NCBI RefSeq assembly: GCF_030269605.1 | Contig: NZ_BSTQ01000015.1 | Span: forward strand, 124,001 to 188,000 | Length of the DNA: 64,000 nt | Source of the DNA: Lentzea sp. NBRC 105346 | GTDB lineage: Bacteria > Actinomycetota > Actinomycetes > Mycobacteriales > Pseudonocardiaceae | Direction: 5' to 3' | Shown here: positions 3,340 to 57,949 of the stretch, one piece after another | Numbering within the stretch: the stretch's first letter is position 1 | Layout: each line of letters begins with the position of its first letter | Program-made: the position numbers and the translations under genes | Notes under the pieces: generated by a model | Told to the model about the DNA's origin: nothing | Seen by the model: the letters and a program-made list of their open reading frames with translations, nothing else | Database searches by the model: none

Positions 3340-5274
3340 GTGCGCCCCATGTGGGCTCTCGTCTCCTCACTCGTGCTGGCGCTGGCCGTTCCCGTCGCGG
3401 CCGACACGTCGATCACCCTGGATCCCGCATCGCCCGGCCGGACGTTCGACGGCGTCGGTGCGATCAGCGGTGGTGGTGGCAACTCGCGGCTGCTGTACGA
3501 CTACCCGGAGCCGCAGCGCGGCCAGATCCTGGACTACCTCTTCAAACCGGGGTACGGCGCTTCGTTGCAGCTGCTGAAGGTCGAGATCGGCGGCGACACC
3601 AACTCCACGGACGGCGCCGAGCACAGCCACATGCACGCGCCGGGCGACCTGTCGTGCGACCGCGGCTACGAGTGGTGGCTGATGGAGCAGGCGAAGGCCC
3701 GCAACCCCAGGATCAAGCTCGCCGCCCTGGCGTGGGGCGCGCCGGGCTGGGTGGGGACGTTCTGGAGCGACAAGACCATCGACTACCACATCAAGTGGCT
3801 CGACTGCGCCCGCTCGCGTGGCCTCACGATCGACTACATGGGTGGGTGGAACGAGAAGGGCTACGACAAGGCCTGGTACCAGAAGTTCCACAAAGCCTTG
3901 CGCGCCAACGGATACAAGGCGCTGGTCGTCGGCGACGACGGCAACAAGGGCTGGGGCGTCGCCGACGACATGGTCGCCGACCCGGCGTTCGCCGCGTCGG
4001 TCGACGTGGCCGGGATCCACTACTCGTGCGGCTACCAGGGCACGGACAAGGGCAAGAAGTGCCTCGACAGCGCCAACGCGCGATCGCTCGGGAAACCGTT
4101 GTGGGCCAGCGAGACCGGCTCGCAGGACCTGAACACCGGCGTGTTCGCGTCGGTGCGCAGCTTCAACCGCGGTTACATCGACGCGCGCATGACTGGGTAC
4201 TTCAACTGGCCGCTGGTCGCCGCGATCACCCCGAACCTGCGGTGGAGCACGACCGGCCTGATGCTCGCCCGGCAGCCGTGGGCCGGCTCGTACGAGGTGG
4301 GCAAACAGGTCTGGGGGATCGCGCACACCACGCAGTTCACCGCGCCCGGCTGGAAGTACCTCGACCAGGCCTCGGGGTATCTGGGCGGCAACCGGGACAA
4401 CGGCAGCTACGTGTCGCTGCGGTCCGGCACCGACTACAGCACCGTCATCGAGACGATCGACGCCACGGCGCCGCAGAAGGTCGACTTCTCCGTGGCCGCG
4501 GGGCTCAAGCGCGGCAAGGTGCGGGTCTACGCCTCGGATCTTCGTTCGAACAATCCGGCTGACCACTTCGTGCGGCAGGCCGACATCACGCCCGTGGGCG
4601 GGAAGTACTCGCTGACCGTGAAGCCCGGTCATGTGTACACGATCAGCACTCTCACCAAGGCGGGCAAGGGCACGGCCGCGGGGCTGCCTCCCAAGCCGCT
4701 CGCCCTGCCATACCAGGACAACTTCGACTCCACCCCGTTGGACAAGCAACCCCGCTACCTCGCCGACATGGACGGCGCGTTCACCGTGGTGCCCTGCGGG
4801 GCGGGGCGGTGTGTGCGGCAGGTGATGTCGCAGGCACCGATCGTCTGGCGCAACGGCAAACGCAACCCGTCCGCGTTGCTGGGCGACGTCACGTGGACCG
4901 ACTACACCGTGTCGACCGATGTGCTGCTGGAGCATCAAGGGTTCGTCGAGCTGCAGGGCCGGGTCGGTACGCAGGGCCTGTCGCCGGACCGCGTGAACGC
5001 GTACTTCCTGCGCGTCACCGACGGCGGCGCCTGGTCGTTGCTGCGATCGGACACCACGCCGAAGCTGACGACGCTCGCCTCCGGAACCGTTGCCGCGCTG
5101 GGCATCGGCAAGTGGCACAAGCTGGCGATGACCTTCAAGGGAACGTCGATCACCGCGTCGATCGACGGCTCGCAGGTCGCCGCGGTGACCGATGGCGCTT
5201 ACGCCGCCGGTCAGGTGGGGATCGCGGTCAGCCAGACGATCAACGCGCGGTTCGACAACCTGCGGATCGGCTAG
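3340..5274 (+). CDS. Secreted GH59 galactosylceramidase-like glycosidase
   Basis: 644-residue protein with an N-terminal signal peptide (hydrophobic 4-21). The body follows mammalian galactocerebrosidase closely: FDGVGAISGGGGNSRLL, YLFKPGYGASLQLLKVEIGGD and HTTQFTAPGWKYL are family landmarks. The acid/base glutamate is E172 in GGWNEKGYD, and the nucleophile is E258 in WASETGS. The last 160 residues or so form the lectin/laminin-G-like domain. Family knowledge predicts removal of beta-galactose from galactosylceramide or related galactosides outside the cell. The start is GTG 3340 or ATG 3349. Its stop overlaps the convergent SARP gene stop. Confidence 0.9.
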   Translation: MRPMWALVSSLVLALAVPVAADTSITLDPASPGRTFDGVGAISGGGGNSRLLYDYPEPQRGQILDYLFKPGYGASLQLLKVEIGGDTNSTDGAEHSHMHAPGDLSCDRGYEWWLMEQAKARNPRIKLAALAWGAPGWVGTFWSDKTIDYHIKWLDCARSRGLTIDYMGGWNEKGYDKAWYQKFHKALRANGYKALVVGDDGNKGWGVADDMVADPAFAASVDVAGIHYSCGYQGTDKGKKCLDSANARSLGKPLWASETGSQDLNTGVFASVRSFNRGYIDARMTGYFNWPLVAAITPNLRWSTTGLMLARQPWAGSYEVGKQVWGIAHTTQFTAPGWKYLDQASGYLGGNRDNGSYVSLRSGTDYSTVIETIDATAPQKVDFSVAAGLKRGKVRVYASDLRSNNPADHFVRQADITPVGGKYSLTVKPGHVYTISTLTKAGKGTAAGLPPKPLALPYQDNFDSTPLDKQPRYLADMDGAFTVVPCGAGRCVRQVMSQAPIVWRNGKRNPSALLGDVTWTDYTVSTDVLLEHQGFVELQGRVGTQGLSPDRVNAYFLRVTDGGAWSLLRSDTTPKLTTLASGTVAALGIGKWHKLAMTFKGTSITASIDGSQVAAVTDGAYAAGQVGIAVSQTINARFDNLRIG

Positions 5275-24984: not shown

Positions 24985-25060
24985 GGCGGGGGCGCGGGTG
25001 CTGACGGGCGGGGTCGCGATGCTGCTCAACCGGCCGCAGGTGTGACGGCGGGCTGCGGGC
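24939..25060 (+). repeat. 61-bp imperfect tandem duplication of the acetyltransferase 3' end
   Basis: TGACGG plus GGGTCGCGATGCTGCTCA recur 61 bp apart (24941 and 25002). The first copy holds the real stop. The second is noncoding relic sequence. Confidence 0.75.
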
Positions 25061-25066
25061 GGAGTC

Positions 25067-25399
25067 GCGTGGTGGGGTCGGATTGCTGGCGGGGTTGGTA
25101 TCCGGGCGGCCTGGCCGGGGTGGCGGGATCCGCCCGCGGCGGCCCAAGCCGTGTGGCGGGGCTGGATTGGTGGCGGGGTTGGTATCCGGGCGGCCTGGCC
25201 GGGGTGGCGGGATCCGCCCGCGGCGGCCCAAGCCGTGTGGTGGGGCTGGATTGGTGGCGGGGTTCGTATCCCGGCGGTCGGCCGGGTGGCGTGACTCGTC
25301 CGCCGTGGGCGGAATCGTGCGGCAGGGGCCGGATCGGTGGTCAGGCTCGTACCCCGGCCGCCCGCCGCGGCCCGAGCCGTGCGGCGCAGCCGGATCAGT
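25067..25399. repeat. 84-bp minisatellite, two near-identical plus two decayed copies
   Basis: Units begin at about 25067, 25151, 25235 and 25317, with a partial fifth from 25379. Copies 1 and 2 share their last 60 bases exactly; copy 3 is 82 bp and diverged, copy 4 is 62 bp. The array fills the 410-bp gap between the acetyltransferase and the YkvA-type gene and reaches into the latter's last codons. No convincing gene was seen in it, although several frames stay open because of high GC. Confidence 0.9.
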
Positions 25400-25886
25400 G
25401 GCCGAGCTCGCCCCCGGCCGCCTTGCCCGGCGCCGGCGGCACCGCCCGCTGCTGCTTCTCCCACCGCAGGAACAACCCGGAAGCCGCCGACACACTCGTG
25501 AGCAGCCACACGAGCACCCCGGCGTCGTCCGTCACCCCGATGATCGGCAACAGCTCCGGCAGCACATCGATCGGCGACACCAGGTAGAGCAGAGCGAACG
25601 CCCACAGCGCGAGCCGGCTCTTGGGCAGCCCGGCGTACTGACCGCTGCGCATGCTGCGCACCAGCCGGGGGAGTGCCTTGAGCCGCTGGATCGGGTTCCC
25701 GATCGGGTGAGGCTCGCCGCGTAGCCGCCGGCGCCGCGCCCGGATGATCCCGACGCCGCCGACGACCACGCCCACGCCGATCAGGCTCCACCCGACCGCG
25801 ACCGGGGGCAGGCCGAGCAGGTAGTCGTCCCGCACGAGGAGCGTGATCAGCCCCACGACCGCGAGAAAGCCCCCGAAGACGACCAT
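25395..25886 (-). CDS. YkvA/DUF1232 membrane protein
   Basis: 163 residues. Two N-terminal helices (about 3-18 and 27-48) are followed by basic residues, then the DUF1232 domain with the hallmark YLVSPIDVLPELLPIIGVTDD (about 100-120) and a last helix. The C-terminal proline-rich tail (PAPGKAAGGELGH) is encoded at the edge of the minisatellite. The ATG forms TGATG with the upstream stop. Function of the family is unknown. Confidence 0.85.
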   Translation of the reverse strand: MVVFGGFLAVVGLITLLVRDDYLLGLPPVAVGWSLIGVGVVVGGVGIIRARRRRLRGEPHPIGNPIQRLKALPRLVRSMRSGQYAGLPKSRLALWAFALLYLVSPIDVLPELLPIIGVTDDAGVLVWLLTSVSAASGLFLRWEKQQRAVPPAPGKAAGGELGH

Positions 25887-54595: not shown

Positions 54596-55166
54596 GTGCG
54601 ACTTCTTTCTTTGTTGCTGGTGACGGGCCTGACGGCCGTGCCCGTGCCGGCCAAGCAGGACTGGCTGCAGCTCGCGTTCGATCAGACCAAGTCCGCGAAC
54701 AACGTCTTCGAAACCGTCATTGGTCCCGGCAACGTCAACCGGCTTCGGCCGCTGTTCAATGTGCCGTTGAACGATGTGCCGGACGGTTCGCCGGTGTTGC
54801 TTTCCGGGGTTGCTACCGCCGCTGGGCTTCGGGATCTCGTCTACCTGCAAGGGGAACGTGGCAGGGTCAGCGCTTTCGACGCGCGCACGGGGTTGAGGTC
54901 TGATTTCGATCGGTTCCCGGTTCCGGGATGTCGAACTCCAGTCCGGCTGTCGACCCCAGCCGTCGGTACGTCTATGCCAATACCAACGACGGGCTGGTGC
55001 ACAAGCTTGCCGTTGCGGACGGGCCGAGTTGAGTCTCAAGTGGACCGCCTGGAGTAACTGGACCACGTCTCTCGTTGTGGCCAACGGGGTTCTCTACCTC
55101 GTGGACGGGAACTCCGGTGGGTTCGGTAGTGGGACTGATGGGCATCTCCTGGCTTGGTCGCTCTGA
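54596..55166 (+). pseudogene. Frameshifted PQQ-like beta-propeller protein
   Basis: An intact start (GGAGG, GTG 54596) and signal peptide lead into DWLQLAFDQTKSANNVFE and propeller sequence. Near 54930 the frame shifts: the continuation VDPSRRYVYANTNDGLVHKL lies in another frame, and after 55032 a third frame holds LSLKWTAWSNWTTSL, ending HLLAWSL at 55166. At least two frameshifts or small deletions make it nonfunctional, and only part of a propeller remains. The left inverted repeat of the HNH element begins a few bases after its stop. Confidence 0.85.
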
Positions 55167-55170
55167 GTTG

Positions 55171-55367
55171 GCTTGGACGCGGCTGCGCCGCGACACGTTG
55201 GCATTTTCGTGCGGGCCAGGCGCTGGGCGCCTGTCCCGCACGAAAATGCCAACGTACCGAGAAGGTGGTTGGCTGCCGTCGTGGTCCCGATCTGTTGGCT
55301 GGGTTGTGTTGTGTTGTGCGGTTGCGGGCGTGGCTGGGATGAGGTGGCTTGCGTTTTGATCGTTTTT
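55171..55367 (+). repeat. Left inverted repeat of the HNH element
   Basis: Starts GCTTGGACGCGGCTGCGCCG and ends at a CGTTTTT run. It is the inverted counterpart of 56686-56884. Confidence 0.88.
55195..55255. repeat. Palindrome inside the left inverted repeat
   Basis: Arms begin ACGTTGGCATTTTCGTGCGG and pair over about 29 bp with one mismatch around a 2-3-nt centre. Confidence 0.88.
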
Positions 55368-55449
55368 AAAAGAGGTTCACCCGATCGTGTGGCTTGTTTT
55401 CGCTGGTAGACGGCCTGTTGACTTGTGATCTTGCGGTAGAGTCGAACGC

Positions 55450-56676
55450 ATGGTCGACACGGATCTGTCCCTCCTCTCCAGTGGTGAGCTGCTTGACGGC
55501 TTCGCCGCGATGGAGCGTGAGATCCGTGTGCGTCATGAGCGGCTGCTGCGCTGGATCGCCGAGATGGACCGCCGTGGCCTGGCCGCGGAGCTCGGCTACA
55601 AGGACTTGGTCGGGGTGTTGAAGGACCGGGTGCACTGGGATCCCAGCGTGTCGAAGGCGAAGCTGCGCCGCGCGCGGCTGCTGACACACCAGCTGGGCCC
55701 GTCCGGCGCGGAGATCGAGCCCGAACTTCCGGCCACCGCCGAGGCGCTTGCTGAGGGCGCGTTGACCGAGGAGCATGTCGACGCGATCGCCAGGGCGATG
55801 AAGAACATGCCCGCCGATGCCACGCCCGACAAGGCGGCGTTCGTCGAGCGGCAGCTGGCGGAGTTCGGCCGGAAGTTCGAGCCGGGCTCGATCCGCGACT
55901 TCGGCAAGAAGATCATCTATCGGATGTTCCAGAACGACCCCGAACCCGACGAGAAGGATCCGGCGCCACCGAGTGACCAGCTGATCGCCCGCATGGAACG
56001 CGGCCGCTGCCGCGGCAGCTTCGATCTCGGCCCGGAGATCGGCGCTAAATTCCTGGGCGCGCTGGACCCGCTGGCCAAACCCCGCCCCACCGGCCCGGAC
56101 GGCCCCGACACGCGCACCTATGCCGAACGGCAGGGCGACGCCTTCGCCGAGCTGATCAACCTGGTGCTGCGCGCCGATGTCCTGCCCGAGCACGGCGGCG
56201 AGACCGTCACCCTCGCCGTGACGGTCTCCTACGACGACCTGGCCGCGAAGACCGGGCACGCGGTGCTGGACAACCAGGAACACATCCCGGTCAAGCAGCT
56301 GCGCAAGCTCGCCTGCGAAGCAGGCGTCATCCCCATCGTGATGGGCAGCCGCTCCCAGCCCCTCAACGTCGGCCGCAAGGCACGGCTGTTCAACAGCGGC
56401 CTACGCCGAGCCCTCGTCGCCAGAGACAGGGGATGTGCCTTCCCCGGCTGCAACCGCCCGCCACGGCACTGCGAAGGCCACCACATCAAACACTGGGCCG
56501 ACGGCGGCAAGACCAGCCTGCACAACGGCGTGCTGCTCTGCCGACGACATCATGACCTGATCCACCACAGCGACTGGGAAGTGAAGCTGCTCAACGGGAT
56601 CCCGTACTTCATCCCACCGGCCTTCCTGGATCCGCTACGGCAGCCGAGGCGCAACCCGCTGCACATGGTGAGCTGA
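55450..56676 (+). CDS. DUF222/HNH endonuclease of the 13E12 repeat family
   Basis: 408 residues. An N-terminal DUF222 helical domain (MEREIRVRHERLLRWIAEMD to about residue 300) is followed by an HNH nuclease domain near 325-375: CAFPGCNRPPRHCEGHHIKH, then NGVLLCRRHHDLIH with the zinc cysteines and catalytic histidines intact. This is the family repeated in mycobacteria as REP13E12. TAGAGT stands 7 nt before the ATG with no ribosome site, so transcription is probably leaderless. The gene is complete and looks active. Confidence 0.93.
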   Translation: MVDTDLSLLSSGELLDGFAAMEREIRVRHERLLRWIAEMDRRGLAAELGYKDLVGVLKDRVHWDPSVSKAKLRRARLLTHQLGPSGAEIEPELPATAEALAEGALTEEHVDAIARAMKNMPADATPDKAAFVERQLAEFGRKFEPGSIRDFGKKIIYRMFQNDPEPDEKDPAPPSDQLIARMERGRCRGSFDLGPEIGAKFLGALDPLAKPRPTGPDGPDTRTYAERQGDAFAELINLVLRADVLPEHGGETVTLAVTVSYDDLAAKTGHAVLDNQEHIPVKQLRKLACEAGVIPIVMGSRSQPLNVGRKARLFNSGLRRALVARDRGCAFPGCNRPPRHCEGHHIKHWADGGKTSLHNGVLLCRRHHDLIHHSDWEVKLLNGIPYFIPPAFLDPLRQPRRNPLHMVS

Positions 56677-56685
56677 CGCATGGGG

Positions 56686-56884
56686 AAAAACGGTGCCAAC
56701 TCCAGCCACCTCATGGCGACCGCGCCCGCAACCGCACCGAACGAACGCAAGTCTGGACAGGATCGGGACCACGACGGCAGCCAACCACCGTCTCGGTACG
56801 TTGGCATTTTCGTGCGGGACAGGCGCCCTAGCGCCTGGCCCGCACGAAAATGCCAACGTGTCGCGGCGCAGCCGCGTCCAAAGC
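56686..56884 (-). repeat. Right inverted repeat of the HNH element
   Basis: Inverted copy of 55171-55367. It begins 10 bp after the HNH stop and ends 16 bp before the XRE gene stop. Confidence 0.88.
56798..56859. repeat. Palindrome inside the right inverted repeat
   Basis: The same long hairpin as in the left repeat, with one extra central base. Confidence 0.88.
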
Positions 56885-56899
56885 TCAAACACGAAGCCG

Positions 56900-57163
56900 C
56901 TAGACGAGAACGCCCCGCCAAGCAGCAGCCAACTCCTCCACGGGCAACCCCAGAGCCTCGCCCAGGCAAACGATCGTCCCAAAGCCAGGCGAAGGTAACC
57001 GCCCAGTCTCAATCTTCCGCAGAGTCTCAGGCGAAATCCCAGCAGCCGAAGCAACCTCCACCAGGTCGCGACCACCACGCGCATGCCGCAACAAAGAACC
57101 AAGCCGCCGCCCGGCTTCGATCTGCGAGGGAGTGAGCGGTTGCCGAACCATGCCCCCAAGCAT
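56900..57163 (-). CDS. XRE-family HTH regulator
   Basis: 87 residues. The HTH is about 24-66: LRHARGGRDLVEVASAAGIS, PETLRKIETGRLPSPGF, then an amphipathic tail (CLGEALGLPVEELAAAW). ATG 57163 is chosen because TAATAC stands exactly 7 nt upstream, giving a leaderless transcript; ATG 57151 is the alternative. It is divergent from the methionine aminopeptidase gene across a shared palindrome, so it probably represses both. Confidence 0.8.
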   Translation of the reverse strand: MLGGMVRQPLTPSQIEAGRRLGSLLRHARGGRDLVEVASAAGISPETLRKIETGRLPSPGFGTIVCLGEALGLPVEELAAAWRGVLV

Positions 57164-57168
57164 AAGAC

Positions 57169-57184
57169 CGGTATTACTATACCG
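57169..57184. promoter_or_regulatory. Shared palindromic operator with two -10 boxes
   Basis: CGGTAT-TACT-ATACCG, perfect 6-bp arms. TACTAT (57175-57180) is 7 nt before the aminopeptidase ATG, and TAATAC on the other strand (57176-57171) is 7 nt before the XRE ATG. Confidence 0.7.
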
Positions 57185-57187
57185 TCC

Positions 57188-57949
57188 ATGATTGAGCTGA
57201 AGTCGCCCGCGGCGATCCAGAGCATGCACGTAACCGGGCGTTTCGTAGCCGAGGTGCTCCAAGAGGTCGAACAACGAGCCGAAGTGGGCGTCAACCTCCT
57301 GGACCTGGAGCACCACGTACGAGGCATGATCAAGCGACGCGGAGCGGAGTCGTGCTACTGGGACTACGCGCCGTCGTTCGGCAAAGGCCCGTTCCGCAAC
57401 GTCATCTGTCTGTCAGTCAACGACGCCGTACTGCACGGCCTGCCGCACGACTACGAGCTGCGCGTCGGCGACATACTCAAGGCCGACATCGCGGTCAGCA
57501 TCGACGGCTGGGTGGCCGACTCGGCGCGCACGGTCATAGTCGGCAACGCGGCGGATGAGGACCAAAGAATCAAACGAGCCACCGAAGAAGCGTTGGAGGC
57601 TGCGATCAAAGCAGCACGTCCGGGCAACCGCCTGGGCGACATCTCGGCAGCGATCTGGGCGGTGGCCCGCGACCACGGCTATCCGGTCAACAACGAGTTC
57701 GGCGGTCACGGCATCGGCCGCACGATGCATGAGGAGCCCCACGTCTCCAACAAGGGGCGAGCAGGACGCGGCCTCACGCTGCGCCCAGGCCTGACCCTCG
57801 CACTGGAGCCGTGGTTCGCCCGCACGACCGACCGGATCGTCTATGACCCCGACGGCTGGACCATCCGCTCGGCGGACGGCTCACGCACGGCCCACTCCGA
57901 GCACACGGTCGCCATCACCGAGGACGAACCCTTGGTGCTCACAAGGTAA
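57188..57949 (+). CDS. map: Type I methionine aminopeptidase
   Basis: 253 residues. Metal and catalytic residues are in place: the HGLP loop, D in ADIAVSIDG and D in VADSARTV, H in GGHGIGRTMHEEP, E in ALEPWF and E in AHSEHTV. It removes the initiator methionine from nascent proteins. Actinomycetes usually carry two or three copies; this one lacks the N-terminal SH3-binding extension and is leaderless, with a private XRE regulator, so it is probably an accessory or conditional copy. It ends base-to-base with the convergent binding-protein gene. Confidence 0.92.
   Translation: MIELKSPAAIQSMHVTGRFVAEVLQEVEQRAEVGVNLLDLEHHVRGMIKRRGAESCYWDYAPSFGKGPFRNVICLSVNDAVLHGLPHDYELRVGDILKADIAVSIDGWVADSARTVIVGNAADEDQRIKRATEEALEAAIKAARPGNRLGDISAAIWAVARDHGYPVNNEFGGHGIGRTMHEEPHVSNKGRAGRGLTLRPGLTLALEPWFARTTDRIVYDPDGWTIRSADGSRTAHSEHTVAITEDEPLVLTR

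Follow-up and report, generated by a model that had tools for sequence, protein, structure and literature searches.

Many actinobacteria carry repeated DUF222 ('13E12') genes, which have, to our knowledge, no known function. The DUF222 element presented here invites comparison with better-known systems, i.e., REP/RAYT systems, homing endonucleases and insertion sequences with their MITEs. REP/REPIN sequences and their RAYT proteins (IS200/IS605-type) share with the element its dispersed palindromes, its paired inverted forms and the existence of both gene-carrying and gene-less versions; RAYT is a Y1/HUH enzyme, whereas the protein of the element is DUF222-HNH, with no HUH/Y1. Free-standing HNH homing genes are likewise selfish HNH genes without a transposase, but the element differs from them in its many unrelated sites, its defined inverted ends and its gene-less derivatives. 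Classical insertion sequences also carry one gene between inverted ends and, as MITEs, exist as gene-less derivatives; unlike them, the element has no known transposase, no target duplication is seen and a palindrome is nested in each end. The mycobacterial REP13E12 repeats also have a DUF222/HNH gene in a repeated unit and are listed together with HNH endonuclease/DUF222 (PMC10589994). The REP13E12 repeats of Mycobacterium tuberculosis are gene-conversion hot spots, whose copies recombine (PMC13061034). The passages concerned mention no palindrome-bearing inverted ends for REP13E12. Our literature search found no account of such DUF222-HNH elements.

The element occupies about 1.71 kb on the forward strand (55171-56884) of the window, the 64,000-nt stretch of Lentzea sp. 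NBRC 105346 DNA that was analyzed, and its limits derive from the aligned ends of 16 copies (12 left and 16 right ends). Terminal inverted repeats, a defining trait of classical DDE insertion sequences, are present: inverted-repeat comparison places the left one at 55173-55367 (forward strand) and the right one at 56686-56881 (reverse strand). A preliminary description had reported inverted repeats of about 197 bp around a single DUF222/HNH gene, nearly identical in their outer part and each with a palindrome of its own, and all of this is borne out. The arms measure about 195 bp overall and are near-perfect over the outer 120 bp or so, with matches of 98% in the outermost pair (55173-55227/56827-56881, 55 nt), 99% in the middle pair (55225-55292/56761-56828, 68 nt) and 79% in the innermost pair (55316-55367/56686-56737, 52 nt). 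The left palindrome, found by repeat comparison and folding, spans 61 nt (55195-55255) with 29-nt arms that match at 97%; the right one, found by repeat comparison, spans 62 nt (56798-56859) and lies inside a pair of 38-nt arms matching at 87%. Towards the left terminus, folding reveals a short outer hairpin, CGCGGC-TGC-GCCGCG (55178-55192), present in most aligned copies, and its mirror at the right end (56862-56876) is apparent from sequence reading and the end alignment. Folded as single-stranded DNA, the left end reaches -50.1 kcal/mol compared with -26.7 (sd 2.7) for 200 shuffles, none of which is equally stable (z -8.7).

Between the repeats lies the DUF222-HNH gene, here called type A (55450-56676, forward strand). 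On its left, the element follows a short remnant (54897-55166, forward strand) whose frame stops 4 nt before it; the preliminary description had called this neighbor a decayed PQQ-propeller gene, of which the short broken frame stands and the PQQ label is unconfirmed, since neither of its two pieces matches a Pfam family. On the right, a helix-turn-helix gene (56900-57316, reverse strand) faces the element and ends about 16 nt from it. The 408-aa protein matches PF02720 (DUF222, E 2.6e-38) and PF01844 (HNH, E 4.2e-5; 24 bits against a cut-off of 21.4), and nothing in NCBIfam above cut-off. No transposase gene was found in the element; 7 of its 10 other ORFs of at least 80 aa were scanned, and none matched a Pfam family above cut-off. 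The Cys/His/Asn columns of the HNH domain are invariant in alignments of 17 and of 29 sequences, and a domain with these residues, as in the homing family of nucleases, predicts nuclease activity. The gene is under purifying selection, with dN/dS of 0.07-0.44 in 36 pairs (dS 0.146-0.671). A predicted structure (mean pLDDT 80.1, pTM 0.41) found no match at E 0.001 in a fold search, with no confident structural match for DUF222 (best E 0.12) and a weak match over 53 columns to 4h9d, a nicking enzyme of the HNH type (E 0.95, prob 0.85). Sequence searches of solved structures likewise gave weak matches that involve the HNH part only, the best being IscB (E 0.0088).

The repeat is not confined to this locus. 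In the host genome (G000; 9.39 Mb in 67 contigs), the 120-bp left end used as query has at least 74 matches (40 of 100 candidates scored), including at least 32 near-full-length ends that mostly form inverted pairs around DUF222 genes. These near-full ends comprise at least 11 inverted pairs about 1.5-1.6 kb apart, at least one fused pair and at least 8 singles, of which several lie at contig ends. Protein searches recover 9 intact type A genes, 69-100% identical, as well as a broken copy with stops that retains only the inner piece of an end, with no full end detectable. A second DUF222 gene, type B, is about 30% identical to type A and occurs in 7 places, where two copies are cut by contig ends and one is split in two pieces. 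Its protein matches DUF222 and keeps the aligned Cys/His/Asn columns; despite their DUF222 match, this protein and one from another genus (G029) match no Pfam HNH family. The type B copies are 98% identical to each other, so their burst is recent. The type A copies, with a dS of at least 0.146, are not recent, and any present activity of theirs is putative. A DUF222 domain in repeated genes, the mark of the 13E12/DUF222 family, is thus present.

Types A and B are enclosed by nearly identical ends, and one copy lacks a gene altogether, with both ends fused (G000 C21:155302-155694). Alignment of the 12 left and 16 right ends reveals conserved termini, mostly CTTTGGACGCGG..., next to unrelated flanks, and 29 host flanks share almost nothing. 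Among the left ends, L032 has a different palindrome and L037 an altered one, and the outer hairpin is replaced by another one in L034, L035 and L037. No target-site duplication was seen by eye in the end alignments and element-less sites, where boundaries lack single-base precision. The best-matching host ends are 96-98% identical as against a dS of 0.146-0.671 in the type A genes. Because genes of about 30% identity have nearly the same ends, and because the ends are closer than the genes, gene conversion between copies is suggested.

The comparison covered 23 other Lentzea genomes (24 with the host), seven of which have an inferred species name: L. aerocolonigenes (G001), L. alba (G003), L. 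atacamensis (G006), L. flava (G009), L. kentuckyensis (G014), L. nigeriaca (G015) and L. terrae (G020). Ends of the window type occur in none of the 23 (E 1e-5), and a relative of the type A protein occurs in 22 of them (E 1e-10). The end of L. alba is of a different type, which has three matches in the host. The empty sites on which the preliminary description had made mobility depend do exist. At the host insertion L037, inspected in 22 of the 23 congeners (all except L. kentuckyensis), the same two facing genes are separated by 4-180 nt in 17 congeners and by 562-1886 nt of other DNA in the remaining 5. The L177 insertion of L. alba has four element-less counterparts, with gaps of 37, 7 and 7 nt and an 8-nt overlap, and L171 has one, less clean. 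As the repeats are multicopy and relatives have sites without the element, the unit in the window is mobile, and this mobility is well supported. A second, parallel insertion at L037 in L. alba was considered and rejected: the roughly 1.9 kb present there have no long inverted ends and hold a 548-aa ORF, putatively subtilisin-like by reading. Four congeners (L093, L095, L116, L117) hold other long palindromes of unrelated sequence at this site. In several species of Lentzea, the intergenic site of L176 is occupied by a DUF222 element or the remnant of one (L212-L217); in G022 (L212), a lone palindrome lies there.

Among 11 distinct palindromes from a motif search (the left palindrome of L032, among others, falls outside this set), the two arms differ by 1.09 mismatches within a copy compared with 3.42 when arms are re-dealt, the lowest of 2000 shuffles being 1.64; the arms covary. 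Of 28 host flanks, 15 have a facing ORF (at least 100 codons) whose stop is no more than 20 nt away, as do 8 of 20 flanks in L. alba; in a 400-kb control sampled at 4000 random positions, the share is 5.3% of sides (binomial p 1e-12 for the host and 4e-6 for L. alba, the two flanks of an element not being independent). Insertions therefore favor the few bases after stop codons, a preference to which selection against gene disruption may contribute. Terminator hairpins find no support as the insertion target, since 9 of 22 congeners have just 4-12 nt between the L037 genes; palindromes are present there in a few of the others. The element's own palindromes do not score as T-tailed terminators. 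Directly outside the ends of the L. alba elements (L168-L177), the bases are often TTAC, TCGA or TGA, which is perhaps a short target preference.

As a secondary observation, the flanks are biased in G+T. Read on the strand toward the element, G+T in the host falls from 0.61 at 0-100 bp to 0.53 at 1-1.2 kb, and 7 of 13 junctions lie above the highest value in the 400-kb control (0.602; control mean 0.500), one of the seven being uncertain because the left boundary of L039 is estimated. The mean is 0.610 for the 16 flanks that have a facing ORF, compared with 0.511 for 162 gene ends of the control (p 1e-6), and 0.569 for the other 12, compared with 0.488 for random 300-mers. Milder gradients occur in the unique flanks of G001, G003, G009 and G015, and solo copies have the gradient on their outer side and not on their inner one. 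At L037, 13 congeners that were measured have no bias, and within 300 bp the host departs from the congener consensus by C>T at 28/173 and by G>A at 5/165 (Fisher p 3e-5), an excess that fades by 600-1200 bp (8/265 vs 6/211). L177 displays the reverse pattern within 300 bp (C>T 0/114, G>A 11/182). The bias is not exclusive to elements: 17 low-copy DUF222 loci have side means of 0.55 and 0.54, above random 300-mers (0.488), and single control gene ends reach 0.700, a value not surpassed by any element flank that has a facing ORF. A run of G-rich near-repeats in the window (25050-25420; 0.635 at 25342) is as strongly biased as the element flanks and has no element end. The flank bias could stem from single strands laid bare by nicking or from transcription that runs into the palindrome. 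Strand bias inside the gene was rejected as a mark of a central break, since immobile genes follow the same trend.

The same anatomy recurs elsewhere. Across loci from G001, G003, G006, G009 and G015, 37 of 40 have a gene flanked left and right by inverted repeats (L140, L142 and L157 have no flanking pair), the repeats being short or distant in a few, e.g., L141, L144 and L147. Four further Lentzea species have multicopy DUF222-HNH elements of their own with long inverted ends, and a fifth, G006, has at least one, as one of its two loci has inverted ends. Their ends have a different core, CATCGCCGCTTCGCGACGAT..., and a palindrome of about 120-134 nt. In another genus of the same family (G029), inverted ends about 55-185 bp long are present at 12 of 23 distinct loci, a share that is not a rate since one case came from the first 8 loci and 15 loci were chosen afterwards; L380, the same place as L352, has the inverted pair although it does not pass the coordinate filter. 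Each of these 12 has palindromic arms in at least one end, and the sequences are unrelated. At five other G029 loci (L350, L351, L377-L379), one palindromic stretch, about 75 nt long, lies 3' of the DUF222 gene, and there are no paired ends. Many DUF222 genes are without ends of this kind. In Amycolatopsis and other taxa, long flanking repeats are convincing at 1 of 35 DUF222 loci (L330), and five more pass a loose test with short or distant repeats. Plasmid records yielded one match, in Arthrobacter, covering 15% of the element.

In a tree of 70 proteins, whose topology was read from the drawing, four genomes, G000, G001, G003 (support 0.83) and G015, have all their copies in one clade each, and the copies of G009 enclose those of G015. 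Neither of the two end types lies alongside the 14 Lentzea genes labeled immobile. In the tree, a clade nested among the mobile genes is made up of 13 of the 15 immobile ones, which suggests that immobile DUF222 genes derive by domestication. In L. kentuckyensis, two copies (L056, L077) carry a palindromic end on just one of their sides.

We consider it probable that the unit is an autonomous mobile element whose sole recognized gene, DUF222-HNH, acts on its palindromic ends. The preliminary description had proposed a mobile unit that uses an HNH nuclease in place of a transposase; the mobility holds, from multiple copies and element-less sites, and the role of the HNH protein is inferred by elimination, which makes it the most likely mobilizer. 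The strongest competing account, possible although rather unlikely in our judgment, is that the palindromic ends belong to a MITE- or REP-like element moved by another enzyme, with DUF222-HNH genes as passengers or captured selfish nucleases. It draws on one type of end around two genes only about 30% identical, and on gene-less forms, i.e., the fused ends described above and many solo palindromes. The L. alba end has matches in 23 of 24 Lentzea genomes (E 1e-8); with up to 34 candidates scored per genome, G008, G019 and G017 have at least 33, 34 and 28 palindromes and 1, 2 and 0 type A genes, respectively. All 20 loci inspected (10 in G008, 6 in G019 and 4 in G004) have a single palindrome with no second end within about 1.5 kb on either side, and three of them with ORFs listed have other genes on the inner side. 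Dispersed palindromic ends with gene-less copies, as in REP/RAYT systems, are thus present. Solo palindromes and a single-copy gene do not go together cleanly: G017 has its palindromes and no type A gene, and G023 a gene and no palindrome. Y1 transposases (PF01797) occur in 10 of 24 Lentzea genomes, including the element carriers G001, G003, G006 and G015; however, PF01797 searches found none in G000, G008, G009, G017 and G019. Paired ends, unrelated in sequence, recur around DUF222 genes in six genomes of Lentzea and in a second genus, a pattern that chance capture would hardly yield.

It is improbable that a homing nuclease gene spread by break repair, leaving inverted ends as a by-product of repair between copies. 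Membership of the HNH family, the variable outer length of the inverted repeats in G001 (about 105-384 bp) and gene conversion at REP13E12 repeats in M. tuberculosis (PMC13061034) would fit such an origin. Its copies, however, lie at many unrelated sites rather than a single cognate one (the G000 flanks differ; one site, that of L176, is common to several Lentzea), the palindromes covary as if functional, and gene-less copies exist. An old duplication, whether tandem or segmental, is barely conceivable, as is an assembly artifact, given the unique G000 flanks, the element-less sites and the same architecture in independent assemblies; in favor of such an origin, one could cite the several copies at contig ends, where repeats would be expected.

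For the autonomous element, we propose that DUF222 would recognize the folded or cruciform end and that the HNH domain would nick or cut there; DNA repair would then copy the element into new sites, favored just after a stop codon and without target duplication. Versions with ends only and no gene would be mobilized in trans, much as RAYT proteins move REPs. More tentatively, and as an open bet rather than our expectation, DUF222-HNH might constitute a new class of mobilizing enzyme, a nuclease that would recognize folded palindromic ends and place its element behind stop codons, accompanied by solo palindromes moved in trans and, later, by domesticated single-copy genes; it would form an HNH parallel to the RAYT/REPIN system.

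Altogether, the transposon-like element with its nested palindromic ends is real and mobile, and has so far been seen in Lentzea and in one other genus. The mobilizer idea is directly testable thanks to gene-less copies, single-copy relatives and sites that lack the element. If DUF222 does mobilize palindrome-ended elements, this would explain the copy number of DUF222 genes and add an HNH-based route to transposition.
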